Shown piece after piece: positions 6,642-15,069 of a stretch of 64,000 nt of DNA (the stretch's first letter is position 1; each line of letters starts with the position of its first letter). Source of the DNA: Halogeometricum sp. S1BR25-6 (GTDB taxonomy: Archaea > Halobacteriota > Halobacteria > Halobacteriales > Haloferacaceae). The position numbers and the translations under genes are program-made. The notes beneath the pieces were generated by a model that was given only the letters and a program-made list of their open reading frames with translations, did no database searches and had not been told where the DNA came from. The stretch lies in contig NZ_JAMQOP010000002.1 in assembly GCF_031624495.1 (NCBI RefSeq), forward strand, positions 682,001 through 746,000. Direction: 5' to 3'.

Positions 6642-8651
6642 TCACTCGCCGCCGTCGCTCTCCAGCGCCGCCCGCCGCGCGACGGCCGCCTCGAAGAACG
6701 ACTCGGGCAGCGAGTCGATGTCGCCGGCCTGCACGCGCCAGAGGTTGGCGTAGAGGCCGTCCTCGGCGAGCAGTTCCCCGTGGGTTCCGCGCTCGACGAT
6801 TCGCCCGGCTTCGAGGACGAGAATCTCGTCGGCGTCCTTCACCGTCGAGAGGCGGTGCGCGATGGCGACGGTGGTCCGGTCGGCCCCGAACTTGTCGAGA
6901 CTGCGGCGGATGAGCGCCTCCGTCTCGGTGTCGACGTGGCTCGTCGCCTCGTCCAACACGAGGATAGCGGGCTCTTTCAGGAACGTCCGCGCGAGGGCGA
7001 TTCGCTGGCGCTGGCCGCCCGAGAGCTTCACGCCCCGTTCGCCGACCAGCGTGTCGTAACCGTCGGGCAGGTTCTCGACGAACTCGCGGGCCGCCGCTCG
7101 GTCGGCCGCCCGGGCGACGTCTTCGTCGGTGGCGTCGAACGTCCCGTAGGCGATGTTCTCGCGGACGGTGCCGTAGAACAGGAACGGCTCCTGGGAGACG
7201 TAGCCGACCGCCCGGCGCAGACTCGACAGCGTCGCGTCGCGCACGTCCCGGCCGTCGACCCGGACGACGCCCTCGTCGGGGTCGTACAGGCGGACGAGCA
7301 GTTTCACGAGCGTCGATTTCCCGCTACCCGTCGGGCCGACGACGCCGACGGTGTGGCCCGGTTCGACCGAGAAGGAGACGTCGCGGAGGACCGGCGCCGG
7401 GGGGTTCGGATTCGAGTCCGGCGTCGCGTCCGCGTCCCCCGCGTTCTCCGCGTCCGCTGCGGCCACCGCCTCCTCGTCGTACCCCGTCTCGTAGCCGAAC
7501 GTCACGCCCTCGTAGTCGATGCGGCCCGCGATGCCGTCAAAGACGACGGCGTCCGGTCGCTCCGTCACCGCACGCTCGGCGTGGAGCAGGCCGTACACGC
7601 GGTCGCTCGACGCCTTCGCGCGCTGGTAGTTGTTGACTATCTGCCCGAACTGCGCGAGCGGCCAGATGAACTGCTGGGTGTACAGCATGAACGTGACGAA
7701 CTCGCCGGGCGAGAGGGTGCCCGAGAGGAACGCCGGCGGCCCGTTGAGCACCCACAGCGCGCCGACGGCGAAGGTCAGCGCGAAACTCAGCCCCGAGACG
7801 ACCGTGAGGCCGGGGAAGAACGTGATGCGCGTCTTGATGGCGTCCCAGTTGGCGTCGTAGTACGAACGGGACGCCTCGCGGACGCGGTCGAGTTCGTACC
7901 CCTCGGTGTGCTCGGTCTTTATCACCTCGATACCGCCGACGTTGTTCTCCAGTCGGGCGTTCAACTCGCCCACGCTCCGCCGCATCCGGGCGTACTTCGG
8001 CTGAACTCGCCGGACGAACAGGAGCGTGAAGACGGCCAGGAGCGGCACCGCAGCCATCGACACCAGCGCCAGCCACGGGTTCAGGGCGGCCAACACGAGG
8101 CCGACGCCGACGACGAGGGCGACGAGTCGGAGCGCCGAACTCACGCCGTCGGTCAGAAACGACTCCAGTTGGTTCACGTCGTTGTTCAGCACCGACAGCA
8201 GTTCGCCGGTCCGCGAGTGGTCGAAGAACGCGCGGTCCTGCAGTTGCAGTCGCTCGTAGGCGTCGACGCGGAGGGCGTGCTGGATGTTCTGCGCGAACCG
8301 GTTCCAGCCGTAGTTCTGGAGCCACGACGCCGCGCCGCCGAGGAGCGTCGCCGCCAGGAGCACGCCGACGGTGAACCACACCTGTCCGTCGGGCACCGTC
8401 GGGAGCCGCGAGTCGGGGACCAGGGGGAACCCGAACGGGCGCGTCCCCAGCAGGATGGCGTCGATAGCCAGCCCCAAGACGAGCGGCGGGACGAGCCCCG
8501 TCGCTCGGGCGAACAGCGTCATCACCGCGCCGATGACCGCGTTTTCGACGTTGTCGCGGCCGTACTCGGCGTACAACCGCCACATCGACCCGCCGTCGAG
8601 GGCGGGTGCGGAGGGAGCGGCGTCCGCCTCGTCCGTCACGTCAGTCCTCAC
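6642..8651 (-). CDS. ABC exporter, fused permease and ATPase (MsbA/multidrug type)
   Basis: The 669-residue half-transporter starts at a GTG. Residues 30-345 form the six-helix exporter domain (with RTGELLSVLNNDVNQLE in a coupling region), and residues 375-660 the ATPase. Walker A is GPTGSGKST (439-447), followed by the Q-loop YVSQEPF, the signature LSGGQRQR, Walker B ILVLDEATS and the H-loop IAHR. Between the start of the ATPase domain and its first strand lies an Ala/Asp/Pro-rich insert (about 393-420) that looks like a haloarchaeal surface loop. It probably works as a homodimer in the cell membrane; the substrate (lipid, drug or peptide) is not evident. Confidence 0.93.
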   Translation of the reverse strand: MRTDVTDEADAAPSAPALDGGSMWRLYAEYGRDNVENAVIGAVMTLFARATGLVPPLVLGLAIDAILLGTRPFGFPLVPDSRLPTVPDGQVWFTVGVLLAATLLGGAASWLQNYGWNRFAQNIQHALRVDAYERLQLQDRAFFDHSRTGELLSVLNNDVNQLESFLTDGVSSALRLVALVVGVGLVLAALNPWLALVSMAAVPLLAVFTLLFVRRVQPKYARMRRSVGELNARLENNVGGIEVIKTEHTEGYELDRVREASRSYYDANWDAIKTRITFFPGLTVVSGLSFALTFAVGALWVLNGPPAFLSGTLSPGEFVTFMLYTQQFIWPLAQFGQIVNNYQRAKASSDRVYGLLHAERAVTERPDAVVFDGIAGRIDYEGVTFGYETGYDEEAVAAADAENAGDADATPDSNPNPPAPVLRDVSFSVEPGHTVGVVGPTGSGKSTLVKLLVRLYDPDEGVVRVDGRDVRDATLSSLRRAVGYVSQEPFLFYGTVRENIAYGTFDATDEDVARAADRAAAREFVENLPDGYDTLVGERGVKLSGGQRQRIALARTFLKEPAILVLDEATSHVDTETEALIRRSLDKFGADRTTVAIAHRLSTVKDADEILVLEAGRIVERGTHGELLAEDGLYANLWRVQAGDIDSLPESFFEAAVARRAALESDGGE

Positions 8652-8792
8652 CGCCTGCGCCGCGCGTCGGTCTCACGTTCGAACCGAGTCGCCCGAGCTA
8701 TATAGCGCGCTCGTCGGTGCCGCGCTCGGCCGACCCGGCGACGCCCGCGGACCGGGGCAAACGGTTTGTCCGCGGTGTGCGAGGAGCCAACG

Positions 8793-9017
8793 ATGTCGCT
8801 CACCGGCGCGCCCGCCGTCAGACGCAACGCCGCGGCGGGGGCGGTCTGTGCGACCCTTCTCGTCGCCGTCGCCGAGTTCCTCGTTCCCCTCGTCTTCGAC
8901 GGCGCGGCGGACGCGACGGCCCGGTACGCGCTGGCCCTGCTGGCGTTCGCGTTGTGGATGACGTGGTTCGTCCTCACCGGCGTCGCGGTGCTGGCCGACG
9001 ACGAGTCGGCGGAGTAG
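8793..9017 (+). CDS. Small two-helix membrane protein
   Basis: The 74-residue protein has hydrophobic segments at about residues 15-34 and 43-64 and an acidic tail DDESAE. The ATG at 8793 is chosen over a TTG at 8766 because GGAG stands a few bases before it and a T-rich GTTTGTCC box lies 28 bases upstream. No family is recognised. The following gene is convergent and begins 18 bases past its end. Confidence 0.6.
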   Translation: MSLTGAPAVRRNAAAGAVCATLLVAVAEFLVPLVFDGAADATARYALALLAFALWMTWFVLTGVAVLADDESAE

Positions 9018-9035
9018 CCGGGTGACCGAAGATCC

Positions 9036-9851
9036 TCAGACCGGTCCCGTCCGCTCGACGGCCGCCTCGAACGCGTCGAGGAACGTCGGGTCGTACGACT
9101 CCTCGACGTGCTCGACGTTCCAGAGCCCCGAGGTGCGAATCTTCGCGCTCCGCGCGTAGTCGCCGAGCCAGTCGCTCCGCCGCGGGTCGATTGGGGAACG
9201 GTCGTATAGTGGCGTTCGCAACCGATTACTCACCCGACCGCACGACGTCGTGCGGTCGGTGAGCGAAGACTTGCGAACGCTACTATAGTTGCTCAGCAGC
9301 GCAATGAGGTTCCGTTCGAGATACGCCCGGTCGCTGTCGGGTCCCGGTTCGTCGTCCACGTCGACCCAGAGAAACGGCTGGTCGCGGAGGAACGCGCTGA
9401 CCCGCCGTTCCAGCGGGTACTCCTCGTCGCGCACGTCGCTCCGCTCGCGCCCCTCGGGAATTCGTGGGGTTCCCCAGTCGGGATACCTGTCGTGGAGGGC
9501 GTACCGCTCGACGAACGCCTCGCCGACGCGGCGGCGGTAGACGGACCCGCGGTGGTTGCCGCCGTGCGGGTGTGCCGAACTGCGCGCGCCGGTGCCGTAG
9601 TGCTGTTTCACCCGGTCCCACATCGTCGTCGAACTCCCCGCGGAGACGGCGTGCGTGCCGACCCGCGTCACGCGGCGCGCGCCGCTTCCCGCCCGCGTCT
9701 CGCCCGGCGCGAGGAAGAGGTACACCCCGCGAGCGGGCCAGTCCATCCGGCCCGTGCAGTCGCCGAGGCGACGCGCGCCGCCGACCCGTTCGTCGAGTCG
9801 AGCGAGGAGGGCGTACAACCGGTCGAGGTCCGCGCGCCTGTCCTTCGTCAC
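9036..9851 (-). CDS. GIY-YIG-like domain protein carrying an in-frame palindromic insertion
   Basis: The 271-residue protein opens with a helical part, then ARGVYLFLAPGE and RVGTHAV, placed like the two strands of the GIY-YIG nuclease fold, followed by LWDR-type (here MWDRVKQH) and HRGSVYRRRVG motifs; a later YLERNLIALL could supply the metal-binding Glu. This suggests a nuclease-like fold; the assignment is by pattern only. Residues 188-215 are encoded by an 85-bp palindrome (9204-9288): the flanks read ...LLSNY and DRSPIDPRR..., which would join into a sensible continuous sequence without it. The insertion keeps the frame, so a full-length protein with a 28-residue extra loop is still predicted. 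Confidence 0.65.
   Translation of the reverse strand: MTKDRRADLDRLYALLARLDERVGGARRLGDCTGRMDWPARGVYLFLAPGETRAGSGARRVTRVGTHAVSAGSSTTMWDRVKQHYGTGARSSAHPHGGNHRGSVYRRRVGEAFVERYALHDRYPDWGTPRIPEGRERSDVRDEEYPLERRVSAFLRDQPFLWVDVDDEPGPDSDRAYLERNLIALLSNYSSVRKSSLTDRTTSCGRVSNRLRTPLYDRSPIDPRRSDWLGDYARSAKIRTSGLWNVEHVEESYDPTFLDAFEAAVERTGPV
9204..9288. repeat. 85-bp palindromic element (MITE-like) inside a coding sequence
   Basis: The outer arms 9204-9221 and 9271-9288 match as an inverted repeat in 16 of 18 positions (core GCGTTCGCAA / TTGCGAACGC). The inner arms 9229-9246 and 9247-9263 match completely except for one bulged C, and are centred on CACGAC/GTCGTG. About 7 bases per side between the arms do not pair. 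The element sits in the gene at 9036-9851 and adds 28 codons (84 bp) without a frameshift. TA stands at both outer borders, so a TA target duplication is possible. No second copy was noticed in the window. Confidence 0.8.
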
Positions 9852-9909
9852 GAGCGGATCTATTCACCGCATCTGATAAAAACGTTCGTCGGAGCACCCG
9901 CCCAGTCGC

Positions 9910-10302
9910 TCAGTCGTACGTGCTGTGCGTCGCGGTTCCGACGTCGACGCGGACGAGGACGTTCTCCGACCACGCGTCCTCCTCGGCGCCGTACTTCCGA
10001 TTTATCTCCCGCGTCGCCGTTCGCGTCTCGGCCTCGTCCTCGACTATCTCGGCGGTCCCGAGGAGCGTCACCGCCCACCGGGCGCGTCCGCCCTCGTCCT
10101 TCTGTACCGACAGGGAGACGCGAGGATTCTCACGAAGGTTCCGCAGTTTCGTCCCCGTGGTGACGAGTTCCACGACGCCGTCCTCGTAGCGGAACCAAAC
10201 GGGCGCGACGTGGGGTCGGCCGTCGCGGCACGTCGCCAGGTGCGCCATCAGGGGTTCGCTCGTCAGCAGTTCCTCCACCTCGTCGGGCACGTCGTCGGTC
10301 AT
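9910..10302 (-). CDS. Pyridoxamine 5'-phosphate oxidase family protein (split-barrel flavin-binding)
   Basis: The 130-residue protein has the family pattern: LLTSEPLMAHLATCRDGRPHVAP at residues 10-32 (first barrel strands), VWFRYEDG, then KLRNLRENPRVSLSV, typical of small FMN- or F420-binding split-barrel proteins. The start is the ATG at 10302; the frame is open much further upstream, but only as antisense of other genes. Because the organism makes F420 (cof genes at 38-42 kb), either FMN or F420 could be the cofactor. The substrate is unknown. Confidence 0.85.
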   Translation of the reverse strand: MTDDVPDEVEELLTSEPLMAHLATCRDGRPHVAPVWFRYEDGVVELVTTGTKLRNLRENPRVSLSVQKDEGGRARWAVTLLGTAEIVEDEAETRTATREINRKYGAEEDAWSENVLVRVDVGTATHSTYD

Positions 10303-10381
10303 ACCCCGTGTAGACGGACGCGGACGGGAAAGCCCTCCCGCCGCAGGGCGTTTACCGGTCGGCGTCCTATCCACGTCCGAT

Positions 10382-10939
10382 ATGGGAGACGACGAGGAGG
10401 CCGAATCCGGGATGTACGCCGTCACGAGGTCCGGTCTGACGGTCGGCTGTGAGAACTTCAAAGCGATAGACGGAGGCGTCCTCCTCTTCGCGGACGTCAA
10501 GCGAAAGCGCGTCTCGGGGTTCGTCCCGCGCGAGGAACTGAAGTACGTCCTCTCCGCCGACGCGACGACGCGGACGGGCGAGAGCGTCTGGGACGCCGGA
10601 GGTCGGGAGGACTCGGAGGTGCGGTCGGTGTCGCCGTCGTCCGCAGAGTCGGGGTCGGCCGACGAGGACGAGAGCGGGGACGAGGACGGCTTCCGGAGCG
10701 AACTGACCGTGCTCGGCGGTCTCGGAGATACGTACGCCGAGCGACTCCACGGAGGGGGTATCGACTCGCTGTCGGCGATGCGCGGCGCCGACGCCGCGCG
10801 CGTGGCGGCCGCGGCGGGCGTCTCCGAGAGCAGGGCGAACCGATGGATAGACGCCGCGAACGAACGGGACGAGGGGGCGAGTTCGGAGCGACAGGCCAAC
10901 GCGGAGACGTCGGCGGAGGACGAGGCCGACACCGCCTGA
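10382..10939 (+). CDS. Acidic protein with C-terminal helix-hairpin-helix domain
   Basis: The 185-residue protein has an N-terminal small beta domain (about 1-60, with GGVLLFADVKRKRVSGFVPRE), an Asp/Ser/Glu-rich linker (80-108), and a C-terminal segment (112-155) with GGLGDTYAERLHGGGI and VSESRANRWIDAA. The last part has the shape of a helix-hairpin-helix unit like that of RuvA/ComEA-type or topoisomerase-tail domains, which bind DNA backbone or other proteins. Whether it binds DNA is an inference. It is convergent with the epimerase gene, with only 7 bases between. Confidence 0.7.
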   Translation: MGDDEEAESGMYAVTRSGLTVGCENFKAIDGGVLLFADVKRKRVSGFVPREELKYVLSADATTRTGESVWDAGGREDSEVRSVSPSSAESGSADEDESGDEDGFRSELTVLGGLGDTYAERLHGGGIDSLSAMRGADAARVAAAAGVSESRANRWIDAANERDEGASSERQANAETSAEDEADTA

Positions 10940-10946
10940 ACCCGAA

Positions 10947-11978
10947 TCAGGCCCGTTCGGCGTCGAACGCCGCGACGAACTCGTCGGTCGACTCGCGCCA
11001 CGCCGTCGCGAGTCGGTCCTCGAACTCCCGTTCTCCGAGGGCGTCGACCTCGTCGCGTTCGTCCAACCACTCGACCGTCCGCTTCGCGCCCGTTCGGAAA
11101 TCGACGGTGTACTCGAATTCGAGGTCGCGTTTCGCCTTCGCGTTGTCGAAGACGGTGCTGTAGCGGAAGTGGTCGCGGAGCATCTCGGTGCGGTCGGGCG
11201 CGACGACCCGGAGCACGTTCGTCGGGACGTGGACGAGGTCCGGGTCGGGCGCGTCGAGGGCCTCGGCCACGCGCCGGTGGTACTGGTTCCACGTCATCGT
11301 CTCCTCGCTGGTGACGTTGTACGCCTCGCCGGCCACCGTCCCGGCGTCGGCCTCGACGGCCCCGACGAACGCGCGGGCCACGTCGTCGCGGTGGCACATC
11401 CCCCACAGCGAGGTGCCGTCGCCGTGGACGACGATGGGTCGCCCCTCGCGGATTCTGGAGACGTACGAGGAGTCGGTCCCGAACGTGTGCAGGAGCGTCC
11501 CGCCCTCGCCGTAGGTGCTCCACGGTCGGAGAACCGTCGCGTCGAAGGCGTCGCCGTCGGCCGCGAAGAACACGTCCTCGGCGGCTATCTTTTCGGCGGC
11601 GTAGTCGCTGACGGGCGGGTTCCGCGGCGCCGTCTCGTCGACGGGGTTCGACGGCGGCGGCCGGTGGTAGACGTCGATGGTCGAACAGAAGACGAAGCGG
11701 TCGACCCGCCCCTCGAACGCGCGGACGGCGCTCTCGGCGTCGGCCTCCGAGAAGCAGACCATGTCGATGACCGCGTCGGGCGCGGGGTCGAGGTCGCGCA
11801 TCCGGCGCTCGAACGCCTCGTAGTCCGTTCGGTCCGCGTGAATCTCCCGGACCTCGTCCGGAATCTCGGCGTCCGTCTCGCCGCGGGTAACCGTCGTCAC
11901 GTCGTGACCCGACGCGACGAGTTGTCGCGTGATTCCCGTGCTGATGAGACCGGTGCCGCCGACGAGAAGTACGTCCAT
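10947..11978 (-). CDS. NAD-dependent epimerase/dehydratase family protein
   Basis: The 343-residue extended short-chain dehydrogenase/reductase has the nucleotide-binding loop VGGTGLISTG at residues 6-15, FCSTIDVY near 97, and a tyrosine-lysine pair Y126-x3-K130 in the usual active-site position (DYAAEKIAAED). VLRPWSTYGEG follows as the substrate-binding segment. It most likely acts on a nucleotide sugar or similar substrate; the reaction is not determinable. A TTTTGTCC box lies 21-28 bases upstream of the ATG, and a short CGCGAG/CTCGCG palindrome (11981-11994) sits between box and start. Confidence 0.87.
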   Translation of the reverse strand: MDVLLVGGTGLISTGITRQLVASGHDVTTVTRGETDAEIPDEVREIHADRTDYEAFERRMRDLDPAPDAVIDMVCFSEADAESAVRAFEGRVDRFVFCSTIDVYHRPPPSNPVDETAPRNPPVSDYAAEKIAAEDVFFAADGDAFDATVLRPWSTYGEGGTLLHTFGTDSSYVSRIREGRPIVVHGDGTSLWGMCHRDDVARAFVGAVEADAGTVAGEAYNVTSEETMTWNQYHRRVAEALDAPDPDLVHVPTNVLRVVAPDRTEMLRDHFRYSTVFDNAKAKRDLEFEYTVDFRTGAKRTVEWLDERDEVDALGEREFEDRLATAWRESTDEFVAAFDAERA

Positions 11979-14922: not shown

Positions 14923-15069
14923 ACGCGGGTCCGCGTCGGCACGGGTAATAGCCCTGTCCGATTCGCGCGAAACGCGGGGGAGGCCTACGGGCGCTACTAT
15001 AAAGCGGGGAGGGTCCTAAGCCGCGTTCGTGTGCGACAGGACGACACCGGACGACGGCGAGGCGAAGCG

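Follow-up and report, generated by a model that had tools for sequence, protein, structure and literature searches.

How does a near-perfect DNA palindrome come to lie inside a conserved haloarchaeal gene without closing its reading frame? This question is raised by a gene in the window, i.e. the 64,000-nucleotide stretch of Halogeometricum sp. S1BR25-6 that was analysed here (contig NZ_JAMQOP010000002.1, positions 682,001 to 746,000). Our answer is that the palindrome is very probably a non-autonomous IS630-type MITE that was moved in trans and duplicated a TA, and that the copy in this gene is an unusual, frame-preserving coding insertion. The answer builds on sequence comparison, in which we directly observed numerous copies of the element, sites that lack it, a duplicated TA at two loci, a preference for CTAG, IS630-like ends and homologues without the insert. 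The locus has the following parts.

9036 to 9851, minus strand: host gene, 271 aa, with residues 189-215 derived from the insertion; matches the PADLOC candidate defence family PDC-M57B
9205 to 9287, family '+' orientation on the plus strand of the window: candidate MITE copy, palindromic, 83 bp (family consensus 84 bp)
9205 to 9206, no strand: one copy of the TA target duplication, a single dinucleotide in 4/4 congeneric orthologues (TA in 3, TT in 1)
9286 to 9287, no strand: other copy of the TA target duplication, from the empty-site comparison
9205 to 9221, plus strand: left terminal arm TATAGTGGCGTTCGCAA, 17 bp, from arm pairing (covarying helix 1)
9271 to 9287, minus strand: right terminal arm, reading TATAGTAGCGTTCGCAA on the minus strand, from arm pairing and covariation
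9226 to 9232, plus strand: subterminal motif TTACTCA, 22-28 from the left end, the same place as in IS630 ends
9260 to 9266, minus strand: subterminal motif TCGCTCA, 22-28 from the right end, from comparison with IS630 ends
9234 to 9259, no strand: central perfect palindrome CCGACCGCACGAC/GTCGTGCGGTCGG, from arm complementarity
9258 to 9259, no strand: site at which one base of the 84-bp consensus is missing, so that the net insertion becomes 81 bp, from copy lengths and alignment

The sequence-only reading had placed an 85-bp palindrome at 9204-9288. The palindrome is real, but its limits had to be corrected to 9205-9287, an 83-bp span reading TATAGT...ACTATA from outer TA to outer TA. The single centre proposed at 9246/9247 is borne out, as the inner arms (9234-9246 and 9247-9259) meet there and pair perfectly; the outer arms (9205-9234 and 9258-9287) are 77% complementary when ungapped and pair over 17 bp. 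What had been described as a bulge is the 1-bp deletion between 9258 and 9259, and one of the mismatched patches (columns 18-20 versus 65-67) is conserved in the family. When 9195-9300 was folded as single-strand DNA, the energy was -34.7 kcal/mol compared with -18.0 ± 2.4 kcal/mol for shuffled sequences (z = -7.0), and none of 200 shuffles folded equally well. The terminal sequence of the MITE is given as the TATAGTAG end. A lone match to TATAGTAGCGCCCGTAG at 14985-15001 (minus strand), which lacks a second arm, is probably a chance occurrence or a remnant.

A genome-wide search showed that the palindrome is one of many: further copies, which the mobile-element interpretation in the sequence-only reading requires, do exist, about 22 of them outside the host gene, and near-full copies, 83-85 bp in length, number at least 23 in the genome in total, none with coding capacity for a transposase. 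Copies L020 and L021 sit in a common 2.4-kb stretch (94% identity, contigs C7 and C5 of the same genome) and therefore go back to duplication of one insertion and not to two separate ones. The 84-bp consensus was matched in 51 of 197 related genomes (E ≤ 1e-4), representing 17 of 63 genera; as no more than four candidates were scored per genome, the number of copies per genome is a minimum. Forty-six stretches from named genomes, all of them Halobellus, Haloferax or Halogeometricum, contain an exact 20-bp pattern of the end. The element is also present in 14 plasmid records, including Haloferax mediterranei pHME505, where it occurs at 22 places. A search of the phage collection gave no match to the element, and 18 viral contig stretches with the end sequence were discarded, each being a single match in unrelated DNA. 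The distance from TA to TA was measured in 95 copies, a non-random sample consisting mostly of the best matches of the 197-genome search plus two plasmid copies, and was 84 bp in 84 of them, 83 bp in seven, 85 bp in three and 82 bp in one. In searches of an open-licence library of papers we found no account of this palindrome family.

Comparison with close relatives revealed what the gene looked like without the element. At the DNA level, four of four congeneric orthologues lack it, and their empty site reads AAC-TA-CGACC in three cases and AAC-TT-CGACC in one, whereas the filled site in the window reads AAC-TA-TAGTAGCG...CCACTA-TA-CGACC. One TA (TT in one congener) versus two TAs here indicates insertion of the element at a TA, which was duplicated in the process. 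Because the empty sites have a single dinucleotide, the net addition is 81 bp, i.e. 27 codons (residues 189-215); the earlier claim of an in-frame insertion of 84 bp and 28 codons was therefore correct as to frame but not as to size. The second locus with a duplication, L009, lies in a gene of the same genome that we take from its sequence to be GNAT-like; its site is empty in two congeners, with flanks that share exactly 2 bp. A flank search for an empty site at L010 found no precise one.

A protein search of 79 related genomes gave matches in 22, this genome included. The homologues align to one or both flanks of the insert, and none across it. Apart from the window, the insert segment itself was matched in this search only by a separate copy of the MITE in a congener (G004). 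In the protein alignment (A2) the 27-residue segment is absent from 13 of 13 full-length homologues, and is thus not a shared ordinary loop. These results bear on one alternative, namely that the protein simply has an ordinary variable loop here whose sequence happens to be palindromic. The segment is in frame, and AlphaFold does put a loop there, after a helix, but the homologues, the TA duplication and the copies elsewhere in the genome all speak against this explanation, and it is refuted by the other copies together with the empty sites; we put its chance of being right at practically nil.

A transposon with matching ends, for which the sequence-only reading had proposed a search, was also found, among the haloarchaeal IS630 elements. 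DDE_3 (IS630-type transposase) is present in 111 of 293 relatives, and at 25 of the best 30 IS630 loci a TATAG was found to be paired with a CTATA, mostly at a distance of 1059 bp and nearly always at one of 1054-1062 bp. This element is annotated as ISNpe3/ISNamo16 in named plasmids and matches NCBIfam transpos_IS630. Its ends are mainly TATAGTA(G/A)NNNTTAGAA, and one end continues TAATT(G/A)CTCAC. Like the MITE, ISNpe3/ISNamo16 has TA at both ends, TATAGTA(G/A) termini, T(T/C)RCTCA at 22-28 and a preference for CTAG; unlike the MITE, it is 1059 bp long and contains a transposase, and its arms do not form a full palindrome. The sequence common to the MITE and IS630 ends comprises the first 8 bp and the motif T(T/C)RCTCA 22-28 from the end, and the two differ at positions 9-17, so that the similarity is confined to about 8 bp at the terminus and the 7 bp of the subterminal motif.

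To quantify this similarity, profiles of the IS ends were made from 26 elements (25 of the 30 loci L111-L140, and L189). The p values were 1.5e-4 for the right MITE end against the distal IS end, 1.1e-3 for left against proximal, 4.5e-3 for left against distal and 0.037 for right against proximal. The unshifted register was the best in three of these four comparisons, with right against proximal, the weak one of the four, scoring best at another offset. The exact subterminal motif occurs in 24 of 26 distal and 7 of 26 proximal IS ends, and in 34 of 84 right and 24 of 84 left MITE ends. IS630 is known to prefer 5'-CTAG-3'. Taken as the NTAN target, CTAG was found in 45 of 95 MITE copies compared with 137 of 7946 (1.7%) in the surrounding DNA; for the haloarchaeal IS630 elements the figure was 14 of 24. 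Insertion at TA with duplication of the TA is the general rule for IS630/Tc1-mariner elements, according to PMC2170065. At L111 (1363-2503) a diverged palindrome copy contains an IS630 element, which had inserted at a TA. Two other sites in this genome that had looked like possible parent ends proved to be copies of the MITE, i.e. C1:602304, a full diverged copy, and C2:394636, a truncated copy located at the end of a hydrolase-like gene. At L024 (5000-5035) a truncated copy provides the final residues and the stop codon of an alpha/beta-hydrolase-like gene.

A mechanism can be proposed in which a transposase of the IS630 family (Tc1/mariner-like, DDE) and of the ISNpe3/ISNamo16 type would move the MITE in trans. 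The transposase would bind the common terminal and subterminal motifs and transfer the element by cut-and-paste, and the MITE would enter a TA in the conserved gene, doubling it. Against an IS630 origin stand the limited similarity of the ends, the fact that no mobilisation was seen and the fact that the genome has no IS630 transposase of its own, neither a profile search nor a protein search having given any DDE_3 or IS630 transposase match there. For a MITE, a partner within the same genome is usual, although it is not a strict requirement. Since none is detectable, the source transposase may have come from another genome or belonged to an element that has been lost, and the copies in this genome are ones whose mover is now absent. 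In G004 an IS630 transposase is encoded in two overlapping frames without stops. Part of an IS630 transposase is found in the first ∼110 bases of contigs C3, C5, C6 and C8 of that genome; the assembly therefore seems to be broken at further IS630 copies.

We also analysed the structure of the family in an alignment (A1) of 60 of the 84 copies that are exactly 84 bp long, of which 58 are distinct. Pairing was found in 92.5% of 1856 cells, and in 94.3% of the cells of helix 1, which is formed by the 17-bp terminal arms; in structures that were slid along the alignment, pairing fell to 21-39%. Double compensatory changes affected 16 of 32 pairs and 106 cells, compared with 41 cells in shuffles, and none of 500 shuffles reached the observed value. 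Positions 18/67 and 20/65 are unpaired in nearly all rows, while other positions covary. The covariation may reflect selection for symmetry, or one arm may have been overwritten with the sequence of the other; that some mismatches are conserved argues against complete homogenisation. Perhaps the left and right ends need to be distinct; in IS630 they are.

This structure is relevant to two further explanations. The first is that a single-strand transposase (Y1, of the IS200/IS605 or REP type) moves the hairpin itself, as has been suggested by the haloarchaeal PATEs. The full-length hairpin, its strong covariation and the conserved unpaired positions are consistent with this, and palindromic mobile repeats are known in haloarchaea from the description in PMC3119063. 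According to the same description, IS605-type elements and PATEs have neither target duplication nor terminal inverted repeats. Both of these are present in our family, which does not fit that class, and the IS630-like ends and target also argue against a Y1 enzyme; we therefore consider this explanation very unlikely.

The second is that the element is a mobile functional RNA or regulatory hairpin that is kept for its structure, transposition being only its mode of spread. The double compensatory changes and the fixed length of the family could be taken in its favour. In palindromes, however, arm homogenisation by template switching could yield the same covariation without function. In addition, an Rfam search of positions 8000-11000 of the window gave no match, and the copies inspected are scattered without a common neighbour gene, so that a structural role of this kind is in our judgement quite unlikely. 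The reading of the element as an IS630-type MITE could also be extended into a broader proposal: that selection acts on the 84-bp palindrome in its entirety, including the covarying arms and the two conserved positions that do not pair, as a recognition unit, which the IS630 transposase handles as a symmetric unit of fixed length; that the enigmatic small mobile repeats found in Haloquadratum are of this class too, with a TA duplication hidden in their ends; and that in the host gene a frame-breaking insertion was rescued by the loss of one base, so that a candidate defence protein gained a new loop of 27 residues. Taken as a whole, this proposal is rather unlikely.

The host protein matches PDC-M57B at 1.8e-63, and it has no Pfam or NCBIfam family, no PDB match or solved structure and no significant fold match. 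Compared with the two nearest congeners, the gene has dN values of 0.048-0.052 and dS values of 0.27-0.32, and its own branch carries 14 synonymous and 8 non-synonymous codon changes among 244 codons. Given the low dN relative to dS and these counts, the gene looks maintained under normal purifying selection; the insertion may fall anywhere on its branch. An AlphaFold model from 14 sequences had a mean pLDDT of 80, and the only run below 50 was at residues 191-214, i.e. in the insert, which is predicted to be a low-confidence loop; no other sequence in the input covers these columns, which by itself lowers the confidence there. The idea that the insert is tolerated thus agrees with the purifying selection and with the model, but its suggested use as a loop is not shown.

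A canonical 84-bp copy would give a net gain of 82 bp and shift the reading frame, as at L009 (1501-1584), where an 84-bp copy truncates the GNAT-like acetyltransferase gene and leaves a frameshifted tail. The window copy is one base short, and the frame therefore stays open; it would add 27 residues, tolerated as a loop. Among 84 copies, one plus frame is open in 73, two minus frames in 79 and 39 and another plus frame in six, and the remaining two frames in none. The earlier suggestion that an open frame lets the element survive in genes is consequently only part of the explanation, because the shorter length is needed as well. That the loss of the base was selected for keeping the frame is unproven and by counts alone not significant, since seven of the 95 copies are 83 bp long and several of these (L068, L076, L083 and L087) lie outside clear genes. 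The data are compatible with the base having been lost either before or after the insertion.

Among 53 copies scanned for spanning ORFs and six further loci, the window copy is the only clear in-frame insertion in a conserved gene, with ORF prediction that is rough around the other copies. A GC-periodicity test of coding context was set aside as too noisy, having failed to pick up even the host gene on one of its flanks. Some of the long ORFs that run across copies (at L005, L088 and L240) were judged on reading to be spurious or upstream of real genes. The copies inspected thus agree with the earlier statement that small palindromic elements are usually intergenic. The Rickettsia palindromic elements (RPEs) are likewise palindromic mobile repeats found in frame within genes, but they are about 150 bp long and often intragenic, as summarised in part of PMC10969869, and a systematic in-gene insertion of this kind is not borne out here.

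The element described here is of a familiar kind, and it is its location that is unusual: MITEs, archaeal IS630 MITEs, the in-gene palindromes of Rickettsia and haloarchaeal small repeats are all already known. A close parallel in size and partner is a Methanosarcina mazei IS630-family MITE listed in Table 4 of PMC3852290 (89 bp, IR of 16 bp, five copies, partner ISMma9). It too is archaeal and similar to its IS at the ends only, but it belongs to another host group, its DR is listed as 0, and that part of the paper mentions no coding insertion. The small mobile repeats (SMRs) of Haloquadratum walsbyi, compared by description only, resemble the family in being haloarchaeal inverted repeats of 80-110 bp with a high copy number and no transposase, and differ in that they are described in PMC3119063 as lacking a target duplication and any known transposon partner. 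If they are of the same kind, the stated puzzle of their movement becomes testable. For the palindromic repeats that are common in Halobellus, Haloferax and Halogeometricum, the comparison offers an IS630-type candidate partner with testable ends and target, and the window provides a fully traced example of a MITE that would ordinarily disrupt genes but has stayed in frame within a conserved protein.

Correia elements of Neisseria have the end sequence TATAGTG and duplicate TA. They are bacterial MITEs, larger and of other sequence, for which the relevant part of PMC10969869 reports a similar inversion of orientation in place; switches between forward and reverse orientation are likewise reported for the Haloquadratum repeats (PMC3119063, in part). 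In our family, L005 (1501-1584, this genome) and L088 (1464-1546, G004) occupy the same site with near-identical flanks and opposite orientations of the element. With one copy inverted, 77 of 84 columns match, compared with 64 in direct alignment, and the simple reading that this suggests is an in-place inversion.
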